64,000 nt of DNA from the NCBI GenBank assembly GCA_017302895.1, contig JAFLBV010000002.1:372001-436000 (forward strand), in the 5' to 3' direction. A program made the position numbers and the translations under genes. This DNA is from Ignavibacteria bacterium. GTDB lineage: Bacteria > Bacteroidota > Ignavibacteria > Ignavibacteriales > Ignavibacteriaceae. The notes under the pieces are model-generated. The model saw only the letters and a program-made list of their open reading frames with translations, had not been told where the DNA came from and did not search any database. Below, piece by piece: positions 37,038 to 47,299 of this stretch (within the stretch, counting starts at the first letter, position 1; each line of letters begins with the position of its first letter).

Positions 37038-38675
37038 ATGAAAATACTTTATTCTTCAGCCGAGTCGCTGGCGCAACAACTTAAAGTGTACCTTGCCCCC
37101 GGTGGGATGATTATTCACTCCGCTCAGGATGGTTTGCTTGATTCAGTCAAACTCGAAAAACCCTCAGCTATTATACTTCTGCCTGATGAAGTGAATATTG
37201 ATGTTTTACTTGCTGTCAGGTTCGCCTCCCCTTCATCATTCATTATTGTCGCCGGATCGGATCTGCCTTCTGACTGGTTAAAAGAACTGTTTAACCATAA
37301 TTGCATTCACTTTTTTCTTGATGAACGAAATATTGATTCTGAATCGGATCTTCTAAAACATTCGTTCTGGAGCCATTATTTCGTTCGAAGAAAAATCGAT
37401 CAAACGGAAAACCGTACTGAGTATTTCTTTGCCAGAATAAAATTCCTGCATGAGATTACCATAAAGATGCTCGAAAACAAACCTCTTGGAAGACTTCTTG
37501 ACGAGATAATGCTTGCAAGTCAACATGTTCTCGATGCTGAAAAAAGCTCATTTATGCTTTATGACCCCAAAGACGGACTTCTTCATTTCCATGTTCTTGA
37601 GGGAGCATCTGAAAATATTATAAAGGACCGGCCACTCGAGCTTGGTAGTGGAATTGCCGGCTGGGTTGCGAAACACAGAATTGCCCAACTCGTGGATGAT
37701 TGCTACACCGACAAAAGGTTCAACCCGAATTTTGATAAAATATCCAATTTTAGAACCCGCAATATGGTTTGTGCCCCAATCATTAAAAATGATATGCTGC
37801 TCGGGGTGATTTCTGTTCTAAACAAGAGGGGTGACAGTAAATTTCTGGTCGAGGATGTACAATTGCTGGAAACTCTCGCCGGTCAATGTGCTGTAGCTAT
37901 CGAAAATGCACGGCTGCTCGATTCAAAGATCGAAAATGAGGCAATTAAAAAAGAACTCGAGATGGCTTTTAAGATACAGCAAAAATTACTTCCGAGCGAA
38001 TTGCCTGTTTTCAAATCACTTTCTGTGTCAGCTAAATTGATTCCGGCTCAGGAAGTCGGTGGTGATTACTATTCTGTTCACAGGTTATCTGAGAACCGTT
38101 GTCTGTTGATGGTCGCAGATGTGTCCGGCAAAGGCATACCCGCCGCACTTCTTGTCTCAACAATTGATGCCACTCTCCACACAATAATAAAACTCAAAGG
38201 AGATGACCTCGATCCAAAATTTATCGCGGAAACTATCAATTCAGTACTCTGTGATGTTACTACAAGTGAAAAATTTGCCACTGCCTGGATTGGGATTCTT
38301 GATATGAATTCCGGAATTCTAAAAAGTATAAACGCCGGGCACAACGAACCGATACTGTTCAAATCCTCCAATTCATCAATTATCAGATTGCGAAAGGGAG
38401 GGATTTTTCTGGGTGTGGTACCTTTCGATTATGAAGTGGAGACACTCGAGTTTTCAAAAGATGATATTATAGTATTCTTCTCTGATGGTGTTGTTGAAGC
38501 CATGGATACGAGGCTGAATCTCTATTCCGATAAAAAACTGGTGGAATTGGTACAACAGAATTCCCATCTCTCTTCAGGTGAACTTGTTGATATGATTGTT
38601 AAAGATGTTTTGCACCATGAGGAGAACACTCAACAAAGCGATGATATAACCATTTGCATTGCAAAGGGTTTGTAA
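37038..38675 (+). CDS. GAF domain PP2C (SpoIIE/RsbU-type) phosphatase with degenerate N-terminal receiver-like region
   Basis: A 545-residue cytoplasmic phosphatase. Residues 1-110 resemble a receiver fold without a clear phospho-accepting aspartate. A GAF domain follows (about 150-297; LASQHVLDAEKSSFMLYD, GSGIAGWVAKH, VISVLNKRG), then a coiled linker with MAFKIQQKLLPSELP and a SpoIIE/PP2C core (about 345-543) with metal-binding motifs EVGGDYY, VADVSGKGIPAALL, INAGHNEP and FSDGVVEAMD. Such enzymes usually dephosphorylate anti-sigma-factor antagonists. No anti-sigma gene is nearby; instead the next genes are ion transporters, 50 nt downstream. Confidence 0.88.
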   Translation: MKILYSSAESLAQQLKVYLAPGGMIIHSAQDGLLDSVKLEKPSAIILLPDEVNIDVLLAVRFASPSSFIIVAGSDLPSDWLKELFNHNCIHFFLDERNIDSESDLLKHSFWSHYFVRRKIDQTENRTEYFFARIKFLHEITIKMLENKPLGRLLDEIMLASQHVLDAEKSSFMLYDPKDGLLHFHVLEGASENIIKDRPLELGSGIAGWVAKHRIAQLVDDCYTDKRFNPNFDKISNFRTRNMVCAPIIKNDMLLGVISVLNKRGDSKFLVEDVQLLETLAGQCAVAIENARLLDSKIENEAIKKELEMAFKIQQKLLPSELPVFKSLSVSAKLIPAQEVGGDYYSVHRLSENRCLLMVADVSGKGIPAALLVSTIDATLHTIIKLKGDDLDPKFIAETINSVLCDVTTSEKFATAWIGILDMNSGILKSINAGHNEPILFKSSNSSIIRLRKGGIFLGVVPFDYEVETLEFSKDDIIVFFSDGVVEAMDTRLNLYSDKKLVELVQQNSHLSSGELVDMIVKDVLHHEENTQQSDDITICIAKGL

Positions 38676-38725: not shown

Positions 38726-39970
38726 ATGCAAACTTTATATCTTTTTATCCTCGTTCTCTTTTTTGGCTATCTCGTAACCGGACTGGTTCTTAGGAAGATA
38801 TCCAATAAGAATTATTTCCCCACCGGGACCGAGTATATCATTCTGGGAATCATACTCAGTCCTGCATTTTTTTCCCTCATAAATCAGTTTCTTCCGGAAA
38901 ATTTTCAATCGCAAACAGGACCCGGGCTTATTCCCGCTTTGTCTCCTTTTATGAGCGCTGCCACAGGGTTCCTCGGCTTTTATTTTGGGATGCACTTCAA
39001 CATTGTGGAGCTGCTTAAGACCAATCGTGAAAGTGTCAGAATCGCATTATATGATTCACTGTTTTCTCCTCTTCTAACGGGAGCAGCGACTTTCGCAATC
39101 CTGGTTTACTTTTTCCCTGATAAACTGGATACATCTCAAATTCTTGCAGCATCAGCCGCATTGGCAATTATTATCTCACTCTCGACCCCCTTCTTCATCG
39201 ATAAATTGAAGGTTGAACATTCCATCTCAGGAAAACTGACAGAATCAATGCAGATCGCCACCAGGTTCTCGAAGTTCTTCTCCATTCTCCTGTTCGGGAC
39301 AATCTTTCCCCTGTACCACTCAAGTCAGAGTACCGGACCCGAAATAACATCAACTGAATTTTTAGTTATCAGTCTCGGTATTGCTGTTGCCGGAGGAGTT
39401 CTCTTTTTCGTTTTTCTCGGCAGGGAATCGAATCAGCAAAAGATTGTCACCGGTACTTTAGGCATTACTTTACTGGGAGGTGGCATTGCGTATTACCTGG
39501 GAATTTCCCCGCTTGCTCTCTGTTTTATCATTGGAGTACTGGCAGGCAATTTTTCCAAAATTAAAAGTGAAATCCTTGCTTCAATCGAAGACCTCGTTTA
39601 TCCTGTTTCTCTTGTAACTGTCATTTTTGCCGGAATGTTATGGTCTCTGCCGGACAGTGAAATTTCGTGGGTAATAATCCTGATTCTGCCAATAGTCAAA
39701 GTGTTTTCAAAAATTCTTAGCCACAAAACCGCCATTAGTGCTGCTTTCGATAAAAAAAGTGTTAATAATCGTCAATTTGAAATTTTTCTTCCGAATGATA
39801 TACTGATTTTTTCACTTCTGATCAACTATGCCACTGTGATAAACAATTCATTGACTTCCATCGTTATTAATACAGCCATTATCTCGGCAGTAATATTTAA
39901 TTTTTCAGGCAGTCATGCCGCAAAAAGATTTCTTGTTGAGTCAGACGAAATCCGGGGAGAAGTAAAATGA
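38726..39970 (+). CDS. CPA2-type cation/proton antiporter-like membrane protein
   Basis: A polytopic membrane protein of 414 residues with about 11-12 hydrophobic segments. The arrangement resembles the membrane domain of Kef/CPA2 antiporters, with FLGFYFGMHFNIVELL in the position of the conserved F-x-G-L/M-x-x motif, and two repeated halves. There is no RCK or NAD-binding domain. It is less conserved than the next gene and may be a partner subunit. ATGA overlaps the next start codon by 4 nt. Confidence 0.7.
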   Translation: MQTLYLFILVLFFGYLVTGLVLRKISNKNYFPTGTEYIILGIILSPAFFSLINQFLPENFQSQTGPGLIPALSPFMSAATGFLGFYFGMHFNIVELLKTNRESVRIALYDSLFSPLLTGAATFAILVYFFPDKLDTSQILAASAALAIIISLSTPFFIDKLKVEHSISGKLTESMQIATRFSKFFSILLFGTIFPLYHSSQSTGPEITSTEFLVISLGIAVAGGVLFFVFLGRESNQQKIVTGTLGITLLGGGIAYYLGISPLALCFIIGVLAGNFSKIKSEILASIEDLVYPVSLVTVIFAGMLWSLPDSEISWVIILILPIVKVFSKILSHKTAISAAFDKKSVNNRQFEIFLPNDILIFSLLINYATVINNSLTSIVINTAIISAVIFNFSGSHAAKRFLVESDEIRGEVK

Positions 39971-42900
39971 TTTCGTACTTCAGAAAATTTGCAGTCTTGG
40001 GGATTTTATTCGGGCTGATGCTACTCACTCTGAATATTGGTTCTTCTCAGAGTCTCATATACCCTAAGATGATAGCAATTCTTGGATTTATAATTCTTGC
40101 TTCTTCCACAATTGGCGATCTTTTTCAGAGTCTGTCACTCCCCAGAGTGCTTGGATATCTGATCTGTGGAGCACTTTTCGGGTTACCATTTTTCCAACTC
40201 TCGGATATCCCCGAACTCAATCTGATGACAGAAGCAGTTGTTGGTAATTTAACCTTTGTCGCGAACATCGCACTCTCATTTATTGCATTTTCCGCCGGTC
40301 TGGAACTGAAGCGGACTAAAGTATCGGGAATTTACAAAAATGCTCTCCTGACAATCGGGTTCAAGGTGTTTTTTGTTTCACTGTTTGTCGGTGGTGGAGT
40401 TTTCGTCCTCTTCCCTCTCCTTTCTGAAACCAGTTTTACTACTGACTATCTGCTCTTCTCGGGGATTCTCATTTCCGTTCTGGCTATGGGATCTTCTGTG
40501 GAATTCACAAAAGCTGCATCATATGATGAGGATGGAGAAAACCGGTTGCTCGATTTCACCATGGGTACTGTTGCTTTTAAAGAAATTTTCAATCTTCTGT
40601 TGATAGCCGGTTCATTCTACTTTTTAGCCACAGTACAATCATTTACTTCTCCTTCATTTTCACCCGACTACATTCAAAGTATTCTTTCTGACCTTCTGCT
40701 TTCTCTGCTTGCCGGTATGATTTTAGGAATTCTTACAATATCATATGTCAGATTAGTTAAGAGTGAAATTTCATTTTTTCTCATTGTTTTTGTTATGGCA
40801 GGAAGTTATGGCTCAACACTTCTTAACCTTCAGCCATTGATTGTTTTCCTGGTTGCAGGAATTGTTTCGGTGAACTTCACCAAAGATTTTGACTTTAAGT
40901 CCCATATCATAAATTTTAATCTCCCTGTCTTTTTAGTGTTTTTTACCCTGCTTGGGGCATCTCTGAATTTCTCCCACATACTGCCGGCGCTCTTCCCCGC
41001 TTTTATACTTTTCCTGCTTAGAGTTGTCGCGATTTATATTTCAGTAAAGATTTCTTCGGGAATCACTGAGATGTCGGCACAAACCGGCAGATATGGATGG
41101 GCTGGTTTTATTTCACCAAATATGACCCTTACAGCTCTCATTCTTTTGACTATCTCTTCACTCTCGATCGGTTCCCCTTTTGTCACAGGAGTGATTTACG
41201 ACTTTTTCCTCCTGAACTTGTTTTTGGGTCCATTACTCTTTAAACTTGCTCTCGTGCTAAACAACAAACCCGTAAGTCCTGTATTTGAAGAGAAAAGTAC
41301 GCCCGAACCTGAAAAAGAAATTGTCGAAAAATTAGAAACTGTTGAAAAAGATTATCGAATCGTTTTCTCTGAACCAAATTTCATTGATCCTGATCTCAAT
41401 AAAATTCTCTTCGATCTCTATTTCAAAGTTGTAGAACTCGCGAATGAGTTTAGAGACACCTTTATCTCCAAAAGAAATTTTGAGACAGAAGAAATATTGA
41501 ATGAGACCATTGCACTCTACAGGAACATGTTTTCGAGCATCGAGTCGATTCTCCTGTCAGGCAAAGAACCCAGAGCTATAAAATCGACTCTGCAAAGTCT
41601 CAGGATCAATCAAACCGAGGTGCTGCTGCACAAACTTGATGAGCGTAAAAATATTGAACGGGAATTTGCCAATTCCGATACTCTCATCAAAAGACTCCTA
41701 AATGAAGTGATGCAACTTACCGACGGGCTCTCTGAAGAGTACCCTCTCGATGTGGAGATAGATTACGCCACCTATTCAAAAAAACCTGTTTCATTTCAGT
41801 TTTTTATACTCAAACTTAAAGTCAAAGCTTTTTTCCAGACCTTTTTTACAGGGCGTCACGAAGCTGTAGTTAAGGTTAATCTCAAAAATATTGCCAGATA
41901 TTATCTGAATTCAAAAGCAACCCACGAATTGTTGGAAACCCTGAATTTAACAGGTGCCGACAGGTTGAACCTGTTCAGAAAATTAAAAGCGATACACAAG
42001 AATTATATCAGTTACCTCGATGAATTAATTCTACTGATTGGCCAGGAAAGAAGCAGCCTCGGATTCGTAACTGTTTTCTTCATGCGTTATGAAGAACTGA
42101 AAGCAATGTTTTTTAATGAACTCGATGTTTATAACTCGGAACAATCTTCAACTGTTCAGGAAATTGAAAAAAGACTAAGTTACGCTTTTGCATCTCCCTA
42201 CAATTCACTCCTCGATGAAATTGCCGATATCATGCTGGTTAAAAAGCGTGGTGATGAGTTAAACTTCCTCGAAGCTTTTGAGAATGCACAGTTGGAGAAG
42301 GAAAAACTCCTCGACTCCATCAGACACTGGGTAATATATTATCAAGGCATTATCGGGTTAATTCAGAAAGAGCTGTATATTTATCGATTCGAAATTCAGC
42401 TTAACAATTTTATCGACAGAGCCTTGTTAAATCTGGCAGATGAAGTTAGTGACAGAATCCGTGCCGGATGTCCTAAAGTTGCTGATCAGTTTAGAACTTT
42501 TTCAAAAGAACTTGGTGAACTGATTCCCCTCGGTTACAGCGCTTTGAAGATCTATTCTGACAGTTTCAGAATGTCGTTCGCAATACCCGAGCTCACTTCC
42601 CTAATAAGAGATCTGGAAAAAACTGCCCGCAGCCGTAAAATCAGAACTTTTTTTGATACACTGATCAATGGAATTAAGTCAGTCTCACTCGGGTTGCCGG
42701 AAGAATCTGTTTTCCTGGACGAGAGTGAGTTGGTGCTCCCGAACCGTACACCGGAGTTCAAAGAGCTTAAAACTTACAAAATAAGATCGCTCACCTCCCA
42801 TTTTCTTCTTTTGAAACTGCCGAGGGAGATTGGCGAAGTTAACGAGTTTCTCGTCAACTATATCGATGGAGCCCTGAAAGAAATTCGTAACCTCGAGTCA

Positions 42901-44463
42901 AGTATCAACTACTATTTCGATTCGATGGTAAAAAGACTGCAGGAGGATCCGGATGATCACGACAGTGTAAAAGCAATTCTTGAATCCCTGGATGAAAATT
43001 TCATCTCCCGTCTAAGAGAAATTGAAAACAACAACGATAAACTTGAACTTGCGATTAATAAGCAGGTGGCAAGTAAAACTGCTTTTGCTGTTACCGAAGT
43101 TAAAAGATTGATTTCCCTCTCTGCGGTCAACTACCAAAGTTCTGCGCTTGATTCAGAGAAATTCAGATTAAAAGTTTACTATTCGTTGAGAAAAGTAAAG
43201 GTACTTACGAAGAGATTCTTTCGCTCCATCTATATTTCTGTTAAACACACCCTTTCCCGTTTTGTCTTCCCCCTGTTTAAAAGAGGTGTCGAAAACTTAA
43301 AATATCTTTCAGGACGATTGACAGTAAATTATCGTGAAGACCTCTTCAAAACCCAGGAGATTCTTAATTCCCTCCCATTTATCTACAGACGCCTTTTTGA
43401 CGGCACATCGCTTGAATCAAGCGAACTGTTTCTCGGGAAGGATGAAATAAAGTCTATCGTAAATCAGGCAAAAGAGAGATTCAAGGCAAAACTCCCGGCT
43501 TCAATCCTTATTACCGGCGCACCCGGATCCGGCAAAACTTCATATATCTACTATATTAAAAAGGATTTGTTGCAACCCGGTGAGTATATCGAACTCTATT
43601 TTCTTGAAAGAATAAGTACGGTAGACGAACTCAGACGACTGATCTCGGATGCTCTTGGTTACAATGAACTCAAAACAGTTGAAGCAATTATCATCGATTT
43701 AAATGAGAGATTCAGGAATAAATTTGTTCTGCTTATCAACCTGAACAAGACTTTTGTGAGGACTGTCGATGGCTTCGAGGCTTTGAAGACAATGCTCTAC
43801 ATAATCTCGATGACAAGTTCAAATGTACTTTGGGTGGCTACAATTCAAAGTATCGGCTGGCAGTTCATAAAAACAAACTTCAAGGCAGCGTCACTTTTTA
43901 ACTTCTCTGTCTCTTTGGAAGAGTTGAACAAACACAGGATAAAGGACATTATCCTCCACAGACAGCACACCACCGGTTTTGCTTTCAGATTCACCCGGGA
44001 TGACCTCTATCTGTTGAGAAAAAGATTGTTTAAGTCATCCAAACCTGTTGAGGATCAATCATACCTGGAACAGGTCTATTTCGAGCGTCTGACCGAATAT
44101 GCCGACGGTAATATTGTAGCAGGTATGAACTATTGGCTGAATTCAATCTCGAAGATCGAGGAAAACACACTCGTAATTCACACTTACAAGTCTTTTCCAC
44201 TTATCGACCTTTCTTTCCTCGATATTTCCATGATTACCGTTCTGTATACTGTAATGCTGCATGGTGGTCTGAAGAGGAGTCAACTGGCACAGTCATTGAA
44301 TATTTCTGAAAAACAGGCAGGAGAATACCTGGAAAAACTTCTCTCTCTGAACCTCTTGAGGATTGGTGAATTGAGTAAAAGCCATGACTACTATTATATA
44401 AACAAATTCAAGTTCAAATCAGTACAGAATGAACTTCAAAAACGGAATATACTGCCATGGTAA
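39967..44463 (+). CDS. Giant CPA2 antiporter fused to a P-loop ATPase and winged helix
   Basis: One chain of 1498 residues with four parts. Residues 1-435 are a multi-span CPA2-type antiporter domain (LSLPRVLGYLICGALFG, ALSFIAFSAGLELK, VLAMGSSVEFTKA). Residues about 436-1175 are a long, mostly helical and charged cytoplasmic region with coiled-coil character and no family I recognise. At about 1177-1380 there is an AAA/STAND/ORC-like ATPase with a full Walker A GAPGSGKTS (from Gly1184; Lys1190), a Walker B-like FVLLINLNK near 1252 in which the acidic residue is Asn, and a sensor-like NVLWVATIQS. The last 70 residues (about 1430-1498) look like a winged helix (LKRSQLAQSLNISEKQAGEYLEKLLSLNLL). 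No stop or frameshift interrupts it. An ATP-dependent gate or regulator of the antiporter is a fair inference. Confidence 0.75.
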   Translation: MISYFRKFAVLGILFGLMLLTLNIGSSQSLIYPKMIAILGFIILASSTIGDLFQSLSLPRVLGYLICGALFGLPFFQLSDIPELNLMTEAVVGNLTFVANIALSFIAFSAGLELKRTKVSGIYKNALLTIGFKVFFVSLFVGGGVFVLFPLLSETSFTTDYLLFSGILISVLAMGSSVEFTKAASYDEDGENRLLDFTMGTVAFKEIFNLLLIAGSFYFLATVQSFTSPSFSPDYIQSILSDLLLSLLAGMILGILTISYVRLVKSEISFFLIVFVMAGSYGSTLLNLQPLIVFLVAGIVSVNFTKDFDFKSHIINFNLPVFLVFFTLLGASLNFSHILPALFPAFILFLLRVVAIYISVKISSGITEMSAQTGRYGWAGFISPNMTLTALILLTISSLSIGSPFVTGVIYDFFLLNLFLGPLLFKLALVLNNKPVSPVFEEKSTPEPEKEIVEKLETVEKDYRIVFSEPNFIDPDLNKILFDLYFKVVELANEFRDTFISKRNFETEEILNETIALYRNMFSSIESILLSGKEPRAIKSTLQSLRINQTEVLLHKLDERKNIEREFANSDTLIKRLLNEVMQLTDGLSEEYPLDVEIDYATYSKKPVSFQFFILKLKVKAFFQTFFTGRHEAVVKVNLKNIARYYLNSKATHELLETLNLTGADRLNLFRKLKAIHKNYISYLDELILLIGQERSSLGFVTVFFMRYEELKAMFFNELDVYNSEQSSTVQEIEKRLSYAFASPYNSLLDEIADIMLVKKRGDELNFLEAFENAQLEKEKLLDSIRHWVIYYQGIIGLIQKELYIYRFEIQLNNFIDRALLNLADEVSDRIRAGCPKVADQFRTFSKELGELIPLGYSALKIYSDSFRMSFAIPELTSLIRDLEKTARSRKIRTFFDTLINGIKSVSLGLPEESVFLDESELVLPNRTPEFKELKTYKIRSLTSHFLLLKLPREIGEVNEFLVNYIDGALKEIRNLESSINYYFDSMVKRLQEDPDDHDSVKAILESLDENFISRLREIENNNDKLELAINKQVASKTAFAVTEVKRLISLSAVNYQSSALDSEKFRLKVYYSLRKVKVLTKRFFRSIYISVKHTLSRFVFPLFKRGVENLKYLSGRLTVNYREDLFKTQEILNSLPFIYRRLFDGTSLESSELFLGKDEIKSIVNQAKERFKAKLPASILITGAPGSGKTSYIYYIKKDLLQPGEYIELYFLERISTVDELRRLISDALGYNELKTVEAIIIDLNERFRNKFVLLINLNKTFVRTVDGFEALKTMLYIISMTSSNVLWVATIQSIGWQFIKTNFKAASLFNFSVSLEELNKHRIKDIILHRQHTTGFAFRFTRDDLYLLRKRLFKSSKPVEDQSYLEQVYFERLTEYADGNIVAGMNYWLNSISKIEENTLVIHTYKSFPLIDLSFLDISMITVLYTVMLHGGLKRSQLAQSLNISEKQAGEYLEKLLSLNLLRIGELSKSHDYYYINKFKFKSVQNELQKRNILPW

Positions 44464-45518
44464 ATTTCAAACCTCTGCTGGTCTTGTTCTTGTTTTGTGC
44501 CATGCACCTTGCGGGTGTTTCACAATCTGTGGAAAAAATCAAAAAGGACTCTGCCGGACACACGATTTTACCGGTCAAAGACAGCGTTTTAAGAATTGAT
44601 ACGATAGTTCGAATCGACAGCGTGTACATTTTTGACACAGTAAGAATTACCGATCAGAAAACCGCCAGAGACAGCAACTTTTTCCCGACATCTTTTATCA
44701 TCGTGGATTCATCATCTAACAAGCTCCCCTCTCTCGATGATATGGTGAACTCAATAAATTTCGTAAAACAGTTGGGGATCTTCAAACTCGTTCTGATTCT
44801 CTTCATTATTGCGATCGCATCAGGTTTGACTTTTGCATTCAGGATTCTCTCAAAATATCTTTCGTTCAAGGGAGAAAAGTTTGGTAGAATTCTGAAAGTC
44901 ATCTCTGTGGCAAGAACATTTGTTTGGATTGTGACATTTTATTTGATTCTTAAGCTGGTTTTTGTCCAGACTCAATTCCTTCTCCTTCTCTTTATTCTCA
45001 TATCACTCGTTCTTTTGGGGATTGCAGCACTGCCACTACTCGGCAATTTGCTGGGGAGGCTTTTTATCCTCTCAGGAAACATGTTCAATCATAATGACTA
45101 CATAAAAGCCGGACTGCATAGAGGATTCGTTCAGGAAATCGGATTAAAACATGTAACCATTCTGAGTGATGAAGGATCAGCCATTTTTATTCCTAATTCA
45201 TACTTTATCAACAACCCTTTTGAAAATGTAAGCAGAGGTAAAAAGGAAGAGCAGATCTCGCTTGATTTTGACTTCCCGTCTAAGTATGATCCTGAAAGAG
45301 TGCTCGGAATCCTGAAGGAAGCGGCGATATCAAATCCTTATTTGTACATCAATAAAGAGCCGGAAGTTTTTATTAAACAGGTCGATTTTATTAATGACCG
45401 TTATACAATAAAAGTGAATCTTTATTTGTACGATTCAAACTATATTGACGAATTATATGACTCTATTAATAAATCGGTTTTAGCTAAATTGACCACCGAT
45501 CAATCTGAGAATAAATGA
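44457..45518 (+). CDS. MscS-like mechanosensitive channel
   Basis: A 353-residue protein with a signal peptide (LLVLFLFCAMHLAGVSQS), a short extracytoplasmic segment with the repeated pattern RIDT-RIDS-FDTV, then three membrane helices (about 105-200) and an MscS beta domain with GLHRGFVQEIGLKHVTI, DEGSAIFIPNSYFINNP and a C-terminal alpha/beta domain. The channel would release ions on hypo-osmotic stress. The ATG overlaps the giant antiporter gene by 7 nt and its end overlaps trkH by 4 nt. Confidence 0.85.
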   Translation: MVNFKPLLVLFLFCAMHLAGVSQSVEKIKKDSAGHTILPVKDSVLRIDTIVRIDSVYIFDTVRITDQKTARDSNFFPTSFIIVDSSSNKLPSLDDMVNSINFVKQLGIFKLVLILFIIAIASGLTFAFRILSKYLSFKGEKFGRILKVISVARTFVWIVTFYLILKLVFVQTQFLLLLFILISLVLLGIAALPLLGNLLGRLFILSGNMFNHNDYIKAGLHRGFVQEIGLKHVTILSDEGSAIFIPNSYFINNPFENVSRGKKEEQISLDFDFPSKYDPERVLGILKEAAISNPYLYINKEPEVFIKQVDFINDRYTIKVNLYLYDSNYIDELYDSINKSVLAKLTTDQSENK

Positions 45519-47299
45519 AGAACGAACCAATCAGGCAAAGTACCCAGGCTAAAATTCTTAGAGCCCTGAGAATAATTCTTATTTTTTCTGCAACAGCCGG
45601 ATTTGCGACTATAATCCTCGAGCATGGTTTCCAAATAAATTTTGTTGAGGAAGCGTTAATCAATCTTCTCTCCGTGGCTGTCGTTGGAATCTTCATGATT
45701 TATCAACTGACTAACATCACTTTTGCCGAAAATAAAGGTCAGTTTCTTCGGGCACATCTTTTTGAGTTCCTCATAATTTTCTTCATCATCATAGAGGGGA
45801 TACTGACTTTATCCGGGGTTAGTATTATACAAAATATTGGCACGACATTTAACATTAAGAATATCACTTTTCTTTATGTCGTTCTGGCACAGGCATACAT
45901 TGTAATTGGTATTATTCTCGGAGCAATCAGGTACAATAAAAAGATCCTGGAATCGAAAATACACCCCGCCAGACTCTTTATGCTTAGTTTTGCGGTCACC
46001 ATTCTCATTGGTGCCCTGCTACTGATGTTACCTGCCGCAAGCAATATTCCCGGCGGTTTAAGATTCATTGATGCTTTGTTCACCTCAACAAGCGCTGTTT
46101 GCGTTACCGGATTGACCGTCGTTGACACCGCCATAGATTTTACGAGATTCGGTCAAATAGTGGTCATGTTACTCTTCCAGATAGGTGGACTTGGGTTGAT
46201 GACTTTTACTACTTTTTTCGCAATCTTTCTTTCGGGCGGACTTGGGATCAAGGAAAAATTCATTCTCCGTGAGATGATGCATGAAGATAATATCGGGGCA
46301 ATCGGCAAGGTGCTTTCAAGTCTTATCATTCTTACCTTCACCCTCGAGGGAGTAGGTGCTATGGTTATTTTCTTTTCAATAAAGGATTTTTATCCCGGAA
46401 ATGTTGAAGAAGCGGTATTCAGCAGCATTTTTCACGGTATTTCAGCCTTTTGTAATGCCGGATTTTCGATTTATTCGATGAATCTGGCCGATCCGATGAT
46501 AAAGAACAATTATATCTTCAACACTACAATATCCCTTTTGATCATCTTTGGAGGTTTGGGCTTCACAGCGATTCTAGGAATGCCTAGGTATATCAAAGTC
46601 AATACAAAACCATTGTTCGCAAAATTGAACATGCCTCTGCAGGTTAAAATAGTGTTTCTCACAACGGCTGTGCTGATCGTTGGCGGTACTCTAACAACCT
46701 ATCTTCTGGAAATCAATTCATCGCTGAAGGGATTATCAACTGGTGATGCATTATTCCATTCCTATTTCCAGGCTGTATCGGCCAGAACAGCCGGGTTCAA
46801 CACAATCGACATCTCCGCCTTTACTGACCCGACTACATTCTTCTATTGTTTCCTGATGTTTATCGGTGCCTCTCCCGGTGGTACAGGCGGAGGAATAAAG
46901 ACGACTACATTTACAGTTGTTTTTCTTTCTATTCTGATGTACAGAAACAGTACCAGGGATTTGAGAATAAACAAGAGAACCATCCCAACTGATGTAATAA
47001 ATCTGGCTTTTATGATCTTTTGGCTCTCAGTTTTGTATATACTTCTCGGGGTGTTTATTATGAGTATTTCAGAACCGGGAAAGAAATTTATCGATCTGAT
47101 GTTCGAAGCATTTAGTGCGGCTGGAACGGTGGGATTGTCGAAAGGGGTATCCCCAAACCTCTCGGATGTCGGTAAATTGGTTGACATTCTGTTGATGTAC
47201 ATCGGCAGGATCGGTCCACTGACAATAATTTTTAGTTTTATTGGTGAGAGGGACAGCAGCCGGTACTCTTACCCAAAAGACAACATTTCAATGTTATAA
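45515..47299 (+). CDS. trkH: TrkH/KtrB-family potassium transporter
   Basis: A K+ uptake subunit of 594 residues. The four pore loops are recognised by TSTSAVCVTGLTVVD, SIFHGISAFCNAGFS, AVSARTAGFNTIDIS and FEAFSAAGTVGLSKG, each with the central Gly of the selectivity filter. GGTGGGIKTTTF forms the conserved segment after the third loop. Two or three extra hydrophobic segments at the N-terminus (about 15-130) precede the core, making it longer than KtrB. It works with the RCK protein TrkA encoded 15 nt downstream. Confidence 0.93.
   Translation: MKNEPIRQSTQAKILRALRIILIFSATAGFATIILEHGFQINFVEEALINLLSVAVVGIFMIYQLTNITFAENKGQFLRAHLFEFLIIFFIIIEGILTLSGVSIIQNIGTTFNIKNITFLYVVLAQAYIVIGIILGAIRYNKKILESKIHPARLFMLSFAVTILIGALLLMLPAASNIPGGLRFIDALFTSTSAVCVTGLTVVDTAIDFTRFGQIVVMLLFQIGGLGLMTFTTFFAIFLSGGLGIKEKFILREMMHEDNIGAIGKVLSSLIILTFTLEGVGAMVIFFSIKDFYPGNVEEAVFSSIFHGISAFCNAGFSIYSMNLADPMIKNNYIFNTTISLLIIFGGLGFTAILGMPRYIKVNTKPLFAKLNMPLQVKIVFLTTAVLIVGGTLTTYLLEINSSLKGLSTGDALFHSYFQAVSARTAGFNTIDISAFTDPTTFFYCFLMFIGASPGGTGGGIKTTTFTVVFLSILMYRNSTRDLRINKRTIPTDVINLAFMIFWLSVLYILLGVFIMSISEPGKKFIDLMFEAFSAAGTVGLSKGVSPNLSDVGKLVDILLMYIGRIGPLTIIFSFIGERDSSRYSYPKDNISML

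Follow-up and report, generated by a model that had tools for sequence, protein, structure and literature searches.

The window analysed here, a stretch of 64,000 nucleotides from contig JAFLBV010000002.1 of an Ignavibacteria bacterium, contains an operon on the forward strand (Table 1), the largest gene of which is a reading frame without internal stop encoding a single protein of 1498 residues. This gene shares 4 bases (ATGA) with its upstream neighbour, designated APa, and 7 with the next gene downstream, which encodes a channel of the MscS family; genes for the potassium uptake proteins TrkH and TrkA follow. A gene for a GAF and SpoIIE-type phosphatase protein (37038–38675) lies directly upstream of the operon and is found there in the genus of the window only (loci L020 and L021).

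Table 1. Genes of the operon and features of the fusion protein (positions within the window)
Feature	Position	Strand	Description or basis
APa, second antiporter-like membrane protein, 414 aa	38726–39970	+	Profile comparison with the fusion antiporter
Fusion gene, 1498 aa	39967–44463	+	Antiporter, helical region, AAA+ ATPase and winged helix
CPA/NapA-fold antiporter domain, residues 1–435	39967–41271	+	Pfam in relatives; predicted fold
K205-E206	40579–40584	+	Aligned with KefC Q155-D156 (ion-binding acid)
R352, invariant TM10 basic residue	41020–41022	+	Aligned with KefC K307
Long-helix region, residues 436–1133	41272–43365	+	Homologous across all three module types
AAA+ (ORC/Cdc6-STAND group) ATPase core and lid, residues 1134–1417	43366–44217	+	Fold match
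Walker A GAPGSGKT, residues 1184–1191	43516–43539	+	Sequence
Walker B position FVLLINLN, residues 1253–1260	43723–43746	+	Neither acid present
Winged helix, residues 1418–1498	44218–44460	+	YusO/MarR-type profile match (3.3e-5); fold match
Partner MscS-family channel, 353 aa	44457–45518	+	PF00924 (3.3e-14)
TrkH K+ uptake subunit	45515–47299	+	Domain search
TrkA, single TrkA_N + TrkA_C unit, 229 aa	47315–48004	+	Domain search

Full-length homologues of the 1498-residue protein are encoded in other genomes at 94, 55, 32, 31, 31 and 30% identity, one of them in a genome consisting of a single contig (G056); further Ignavibacteria and Melioribacter-type genomes also encode the complete fusion, as does an Acidobacteriota chromosome (L132). 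Across Ignavibacteria and Acidobacteriota the fusions measure 1490–1519 residues, at 94 to about 28% identity, and the nearest named relative belongs to the Ignavibacteriaceae MAG SB14 (57% over the C-terminal part). Since the identical arrangement recurs in many independent assemblies from two phyla and forms one clade (support 0.94), a sequencing or assembly error that joined two genes, which an earlier, sequence-only reading of this DNA had named as the possible refutation, is practically out of the question. The fusion is real, conserved and old, and antiporter and ATPase do sit in one chain, as that reading held; homologues with the ATPase as a separate gene, the other half of that refutation, do exist, but beside an old and monophyletic fusion they betray no error. 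Pfam, NCBIfam and PADLOC gave no match above cut-off for the fusion protein itself, in keeping with its view that no described family is at hand, and a scan of genome contigs with the fusion protein as single query gave no match.

Among aligned relatives of residues 1–435, 11 of 12 match PF00999 (best 2e-25), and TIGR00932, a model of CPA2 antiporters, picks up the Acidobacteriota copy (9e-10); the match of the window's own residues to PF00999 falls short of E 0.1. In an AlphaFold2 model covering residues 1–1198 (mean pLDDT 71), the antiporter domain resembles NapA (Z 31.6, 377 residues, 3.8 Å) and KefC (Z 24), with crossing helices broken at 173–178 and 381–386. The residues K205-E206 and R352 were placed by direct alignment to KefC of E. 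coli, the signature of which comprises Q155-D156 (Q-D in TM5), K307 and SST (PMC10224563). The fusion antiporter reads GSS or GTS and has K-D/E, not Q-D or D-D, in TM5: K205 is invariant among relatives, and position 206 is D or E, D in most. A domain search of the fusion protein found no TrkA_N (KTN/RCK) match. Pfam matches in relatives and the NapA fold bear out the CPA2 part of the earlier assignment to a "CPA2/Kef-type" antiporter; the Kef signature and a KTN/RCK domain are not present. The ion-binding acid is thus retained, with a lysine as its neighbour; as we know of no characterised antiporter with a K-D/E pair in TM5, the transport chemistry is not to be assumed, and that the domain transports at all is not certain.

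The remainder of the protein was modelled separately (residues 436–1498, mean pLDDT 82) and is ordered as helices of up to 113 residues, a low-confidence linker, an AAA+ domain and a winged helix. Residues 436–1133 consist almost entirely of long helices; this part had been put at 740 residues, correctly as to its helical nature, but its length is nearer 700. Sequence searches with the helical region returned low-complexity helical matches only, and fold searches barely probed it. The AAA+ domain together with the winged helix resembles TnsC, ORC/Cdc6, Apaf-1, MalT and NLRC4 (Foldseek E down to 6.6e-8; Z 13–15), which bears out the sequence-only reading in its AAA/STAND-like P-loop domain with a complete Walker A and a C-terminal winged helix; the structure prediction that it recommended thus yielded, from the two overlapping models, a NapA fold and an AAA+/winged-helix fold. 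The winged helix, for that reading a DNA-binding-type fold, is a regular component of ATPases of the ORC/Cdc6 and STAND kinds; as it belongs to the ATPase fold, it is no evidence here for binding of DNA.

What that reading overlooked is that the ATPase module is mostly a gene of its own, that an MscS channel is its constant partner and that the N-terminal transporter is exchangeable. The C-terminal approximately 1000–1060 residues are a mobile regulatory module occurring in three forms: behind a CPA2 antiporter (type A, about 1500 aa), as a stand-alone gene (type B, about 1000 aa) and behind a K-Cl cotransporter of SLC12 type (type C, about 1700 aa), the N-terminus of which matches SLC12A4 at 2.7e-68 and a K-Cl cotransporter model at 3.4e-116. 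Over about 400–470 columns the helical region can be aligned with that of the stand-alone form (E 3e-23) and of the cotransporter-fused form (1.6e-13), and no convincing transmembrane segments were found in the stand-alone copies. In the module tree types C (support 1.0) and A (0.94) are single clades; type B is weakly supported (0.65). Of 164 genomes of the order, 31 carry the module, as do 73 of 395 sampled from the phylum. At the C-type loci (L033, L034, L035, L096, L097 and L099), the cotransporter homologue with its ATPase module (about 1700 aa) is followed by a short MscS gene (about 243 aa). Shortened B-type genes of about 340–433 aa, comprising the ATPase part only and still adjoining MscS, were seen at L112–L115, in some genomes with an in-frame stop nearby.

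The catalytic motifs vary with the type. All transporter-fused copies (A and C) that could be read have the Walker A lysine. The B copies of Ignavibacteria lack it, the residue after GEKGSG being A, N, I, V, T or S, and R often takes its place in a B clade that is GC-rich. Lysine-less stand-alone modules of Ignavibacteria (L027–L032, L086, L088, L091–L095) have kept the remaining domain and the MscS partner. Walker B is weak throughout, usually E-N, sometimes D-N, I-D or N-D; the window copy has I-N, that is, no acid, and the relative at 55% identity reads YILLIDLH. The window copy is thus likely to bind nucleotide without hydrolysing much of it, and for this copy at least, the weakness of Walker B everywhere would favour a nucleotide-binding switch rather than a motor powered by hydrolysis; given the lysine loss in some B copies as well, an ATP-driven cycle is not general.

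The partner is an ordinary MscS-family channel, the beta-domain of which scores 53.2 bits against PF00924 (curated cut-off 20.2). After removal of duplicates 78 module genes remained, 3 of which are cut by contig ends; in all of the other 75 distinct, testable loci an MscS gene is adjacent on the same strand, downstream of the module in most (median gap 1 base); in SAR324 and in a single lineage of GC-rich B-types it lies upstream. At L102 and L117 its seeming absence was an artefact of ORF calling, and the gene was recovered by six-frame search. The profile used for counting was built from module neighbours; PF00924 was confirmed independently by Pfam in the samples tested and by genome scans. 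Because the genomes checked contain only 4–9 MscS genes each, a given locus would have one as neighbour by chance in well under 1% of cases. In an out-of-sample test, a plasmid search returned only two records, both from Novosphingobium, a member of another phylum, and in both the MscS gene comes immediately after that of the ATPase: in one an annotated AAA family ATPase is followed after 2 bases by a mechanosensitive ion channel gene, and in the other, which is unannotated, profile search gave the same order. A pair on a Novosphingobium pentaromativorans plasmid (L186, 3643–7895) represents a culturable minimal version in Alphaproteobacteria; a stand-alone module and MscS of Novosphingobium have the accessions WP_007014233.1/WP_039857743.1. 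In the MscS tree the partners group by module type (support B 1.0, C 0.99, A core 0.99) and are separated from 20 paralogues that come from five of the genomes (0.977); where a genome has two module types, each MscS groups with its own. We regard this sorting as the strongest evidence that module and channel form a functional pair. A fusion of MscS to the ATPase was not found among the loci examined.

In the window, the operon holds a second antiporter-like protein. APa resembles the fusion antiporter (hhalign: 97.6%, E 2.6e-12, 343 columns), its relative in L132 matches PF00999 (1.6e-4), and its profile gave only meaningless matches in PDB and Pfam. It has no acid at the site matching that of TM5 and probably is a non-transporting partner subunit; a heterodimer of one active and one inactive subunit, formed with the fusion antiporter, is plausible. 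In A-type loci of sufficient length APa immediately precedes the fusion gene; the exceptions are L132 and L100, where it is three genes upstream. The set of APa, fusion, MscS, TrkH and TrkA is retained in Acidobacteriota (L132) in a different gene order.

Both transporters found fused to the module, CPA2 and the K-Cl cotransporter, are ion transporters. As the known families act on gradients of K+, Na+ or Cl-, and as they stand here beside a channel that lets solutes out under tension, with K+ uptake added in A-type operons, ion and turgor balance suggests itself as the common theme. The module most likely senses the state of the cell and controls MscS and, where there is one, the fused transporter. 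With moderate confidence, we propose that an ORC/Cdc6-STAND nucleotide switch controls a dedicated MscS channel and, in fused forms, an ion transporter for K+ and turgor balance; nucleotide-controlled transport is the idea that we favour. The C-terminal approximately 1060 residues would be the sensor or switch with the MscS-family channel as partner; in the lineage of the window the switch would be fused to a CPA2-type K+(Na+)/H+ antiporter, probably paired with APa and co-expressed with TrkH/TrkA. Helical part and ATPase domain would lie in the cytoplasm beneath the membrane, where ionic strength, crowding, K+ or the level of adenine nucleotides may be sensed; a nucleotide-dependent rearrangement would act on the antiporter as well as on the opening of the neighbouring MscS, and would thereby coordinate ion efflux, the release of pressure and K+ uptake. 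The analysis establishes the domains and their folds, the conserved fusion, the constant pairing with MscS and the MscS lineages particular to each type; physical contact of the two proteins, the direction of control or gating, the signal, and the ions concerned are inferred. More tentatively, and with rather less confidence than we have in the model as a whole, an oligomer of the STAND-like ATPase might dock on the heptameric MscS, making it nucleotide- or state-gated instead of purely tension-gated, and the same switch might drive the transporter half, be it CPA2 or K-Cl.

Other explanations have to be weighed. The ATPase might be an assembly factor or scaffold by which MscS heptamer and transporter are gathered or put together at the membrane, with no part in gating; long helices combined with an AAA+ domain are typical of assembly factors too, the nearly overlapping genes suggest co-translational assembly, and the catalytic residues vary. 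We hold this to be unlikely, because the Walker A lysine in all transporter-fused copies suggests a nucleotide-dependent role and because a pure scaffold poorly explains fusion to two unrelated ion transporters, both of families concerned with ion and volume balance.

Somewhat less probable still is that the antiporter domain is a dead relic serving as mere membrane anchor, the working system consisting of ATPase and MscS only. The first residue of the TM5 pair is lysine in place of Q or D, the window copy has diverged beyond the reach of PF00999, B-types work without any transporter, and the membrane part can be degenerate: the A-type protein of L100 (8062–12459) has a membrane part without recognisable PF00999 similarity, the other operon members (APa-like, TrkA, TrkH, MscS) being kept. 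However, the acid at position 206 (D/E), R352 and many core glycines and prolines of the domain are conserved across phyla, for which a bare anchor would have no need.

A defence system, in which a STAND-like infection sensor opens MscS to depolarise the cell, is a weaker reading than ion and turgor control, and we consider it improbable indeed. STAND ATPases are common in anti-phage defence, and the ATPase part has a weak similarity to the PADLOC model mads_8 (E 3e-4); yet MscS and the other proteins tested have no PADLOC match, A-types carry TrkH/TrkA and antiporters, and in Balneolaceae-type genomes the pair resides in a stable housekeeping neighbourhood with a uridine-kinase-like gene adjoining in 13 of 14 loci.

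The switch model joins parts all of which come from known families. Like KefC and other CPA2 proteins with a KTN domain, the fusion combines a NapA-fold antiporter, with alignable acid and TM10 basic residue, and a C-terminal cytoplasmic nucleotide-binding regulator; this regulator, however, is an AAA+ protein of ORC/Cdc6-STAND kind on a helical region of about 700 residues and not a Rossmann KTN/RCK domain, and the window system differs further in K-D/E for Q-D, the acid-less second antiporter gene upstream, and an operon with MscS, TrkH and TrkA. MscS is the standard example of a channel gated solely by membrane tension, and some members of the family are tuned by cytoplasmic ligand domains (bCNG, MscK); the partner here has the usual MscS fold (PF00924), but its ATPase is a separate, dedicated gene. 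TrkH and a single-unit TrkA are as in TrkH/TrkA and Ktr uptake, except that they form one conserved set together with antiporter, ATPase and MscS. Residues 1134–1498 share their fold, winged helix included, and the Walker A motif with STAND and ORC/Cdc6 ATPases (MalT, Apaf-1, NLRC4, Cdc6), from which the module differs in sitting on ion transporters or being paired with MscS, and in its unusual, variable Walker B. The N-terminus of type C belongs to the SLC12 family, but unlike SLC12 K-Cl cotransporters it carries the ATPase module and has a short MscS as its partner. In the open-access literature searched we found no description of an ATPase partner of MscS or of these fusions.

A dedicated ATP-binding partner has been kept beside distinct MscS lineages in Bacteroidota (in the GTDB sense), Acidobacteriota, SAR324 and Alphaproteobacteria; if the switch model is true, many bacteria use one molecular switch to govern both the release of pressure and the transport of ions. 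Should docking and gating hold as well, this would be a new class of osmoregulatory complex, and type C would be a bacterial machine for cell-volume control built on a relative of the K-Cl cotransporters, as in animal cells. The minimal two-gene version occurs in culturable Novosphingobium and in cultured halophiles, which makes the system directly testable.
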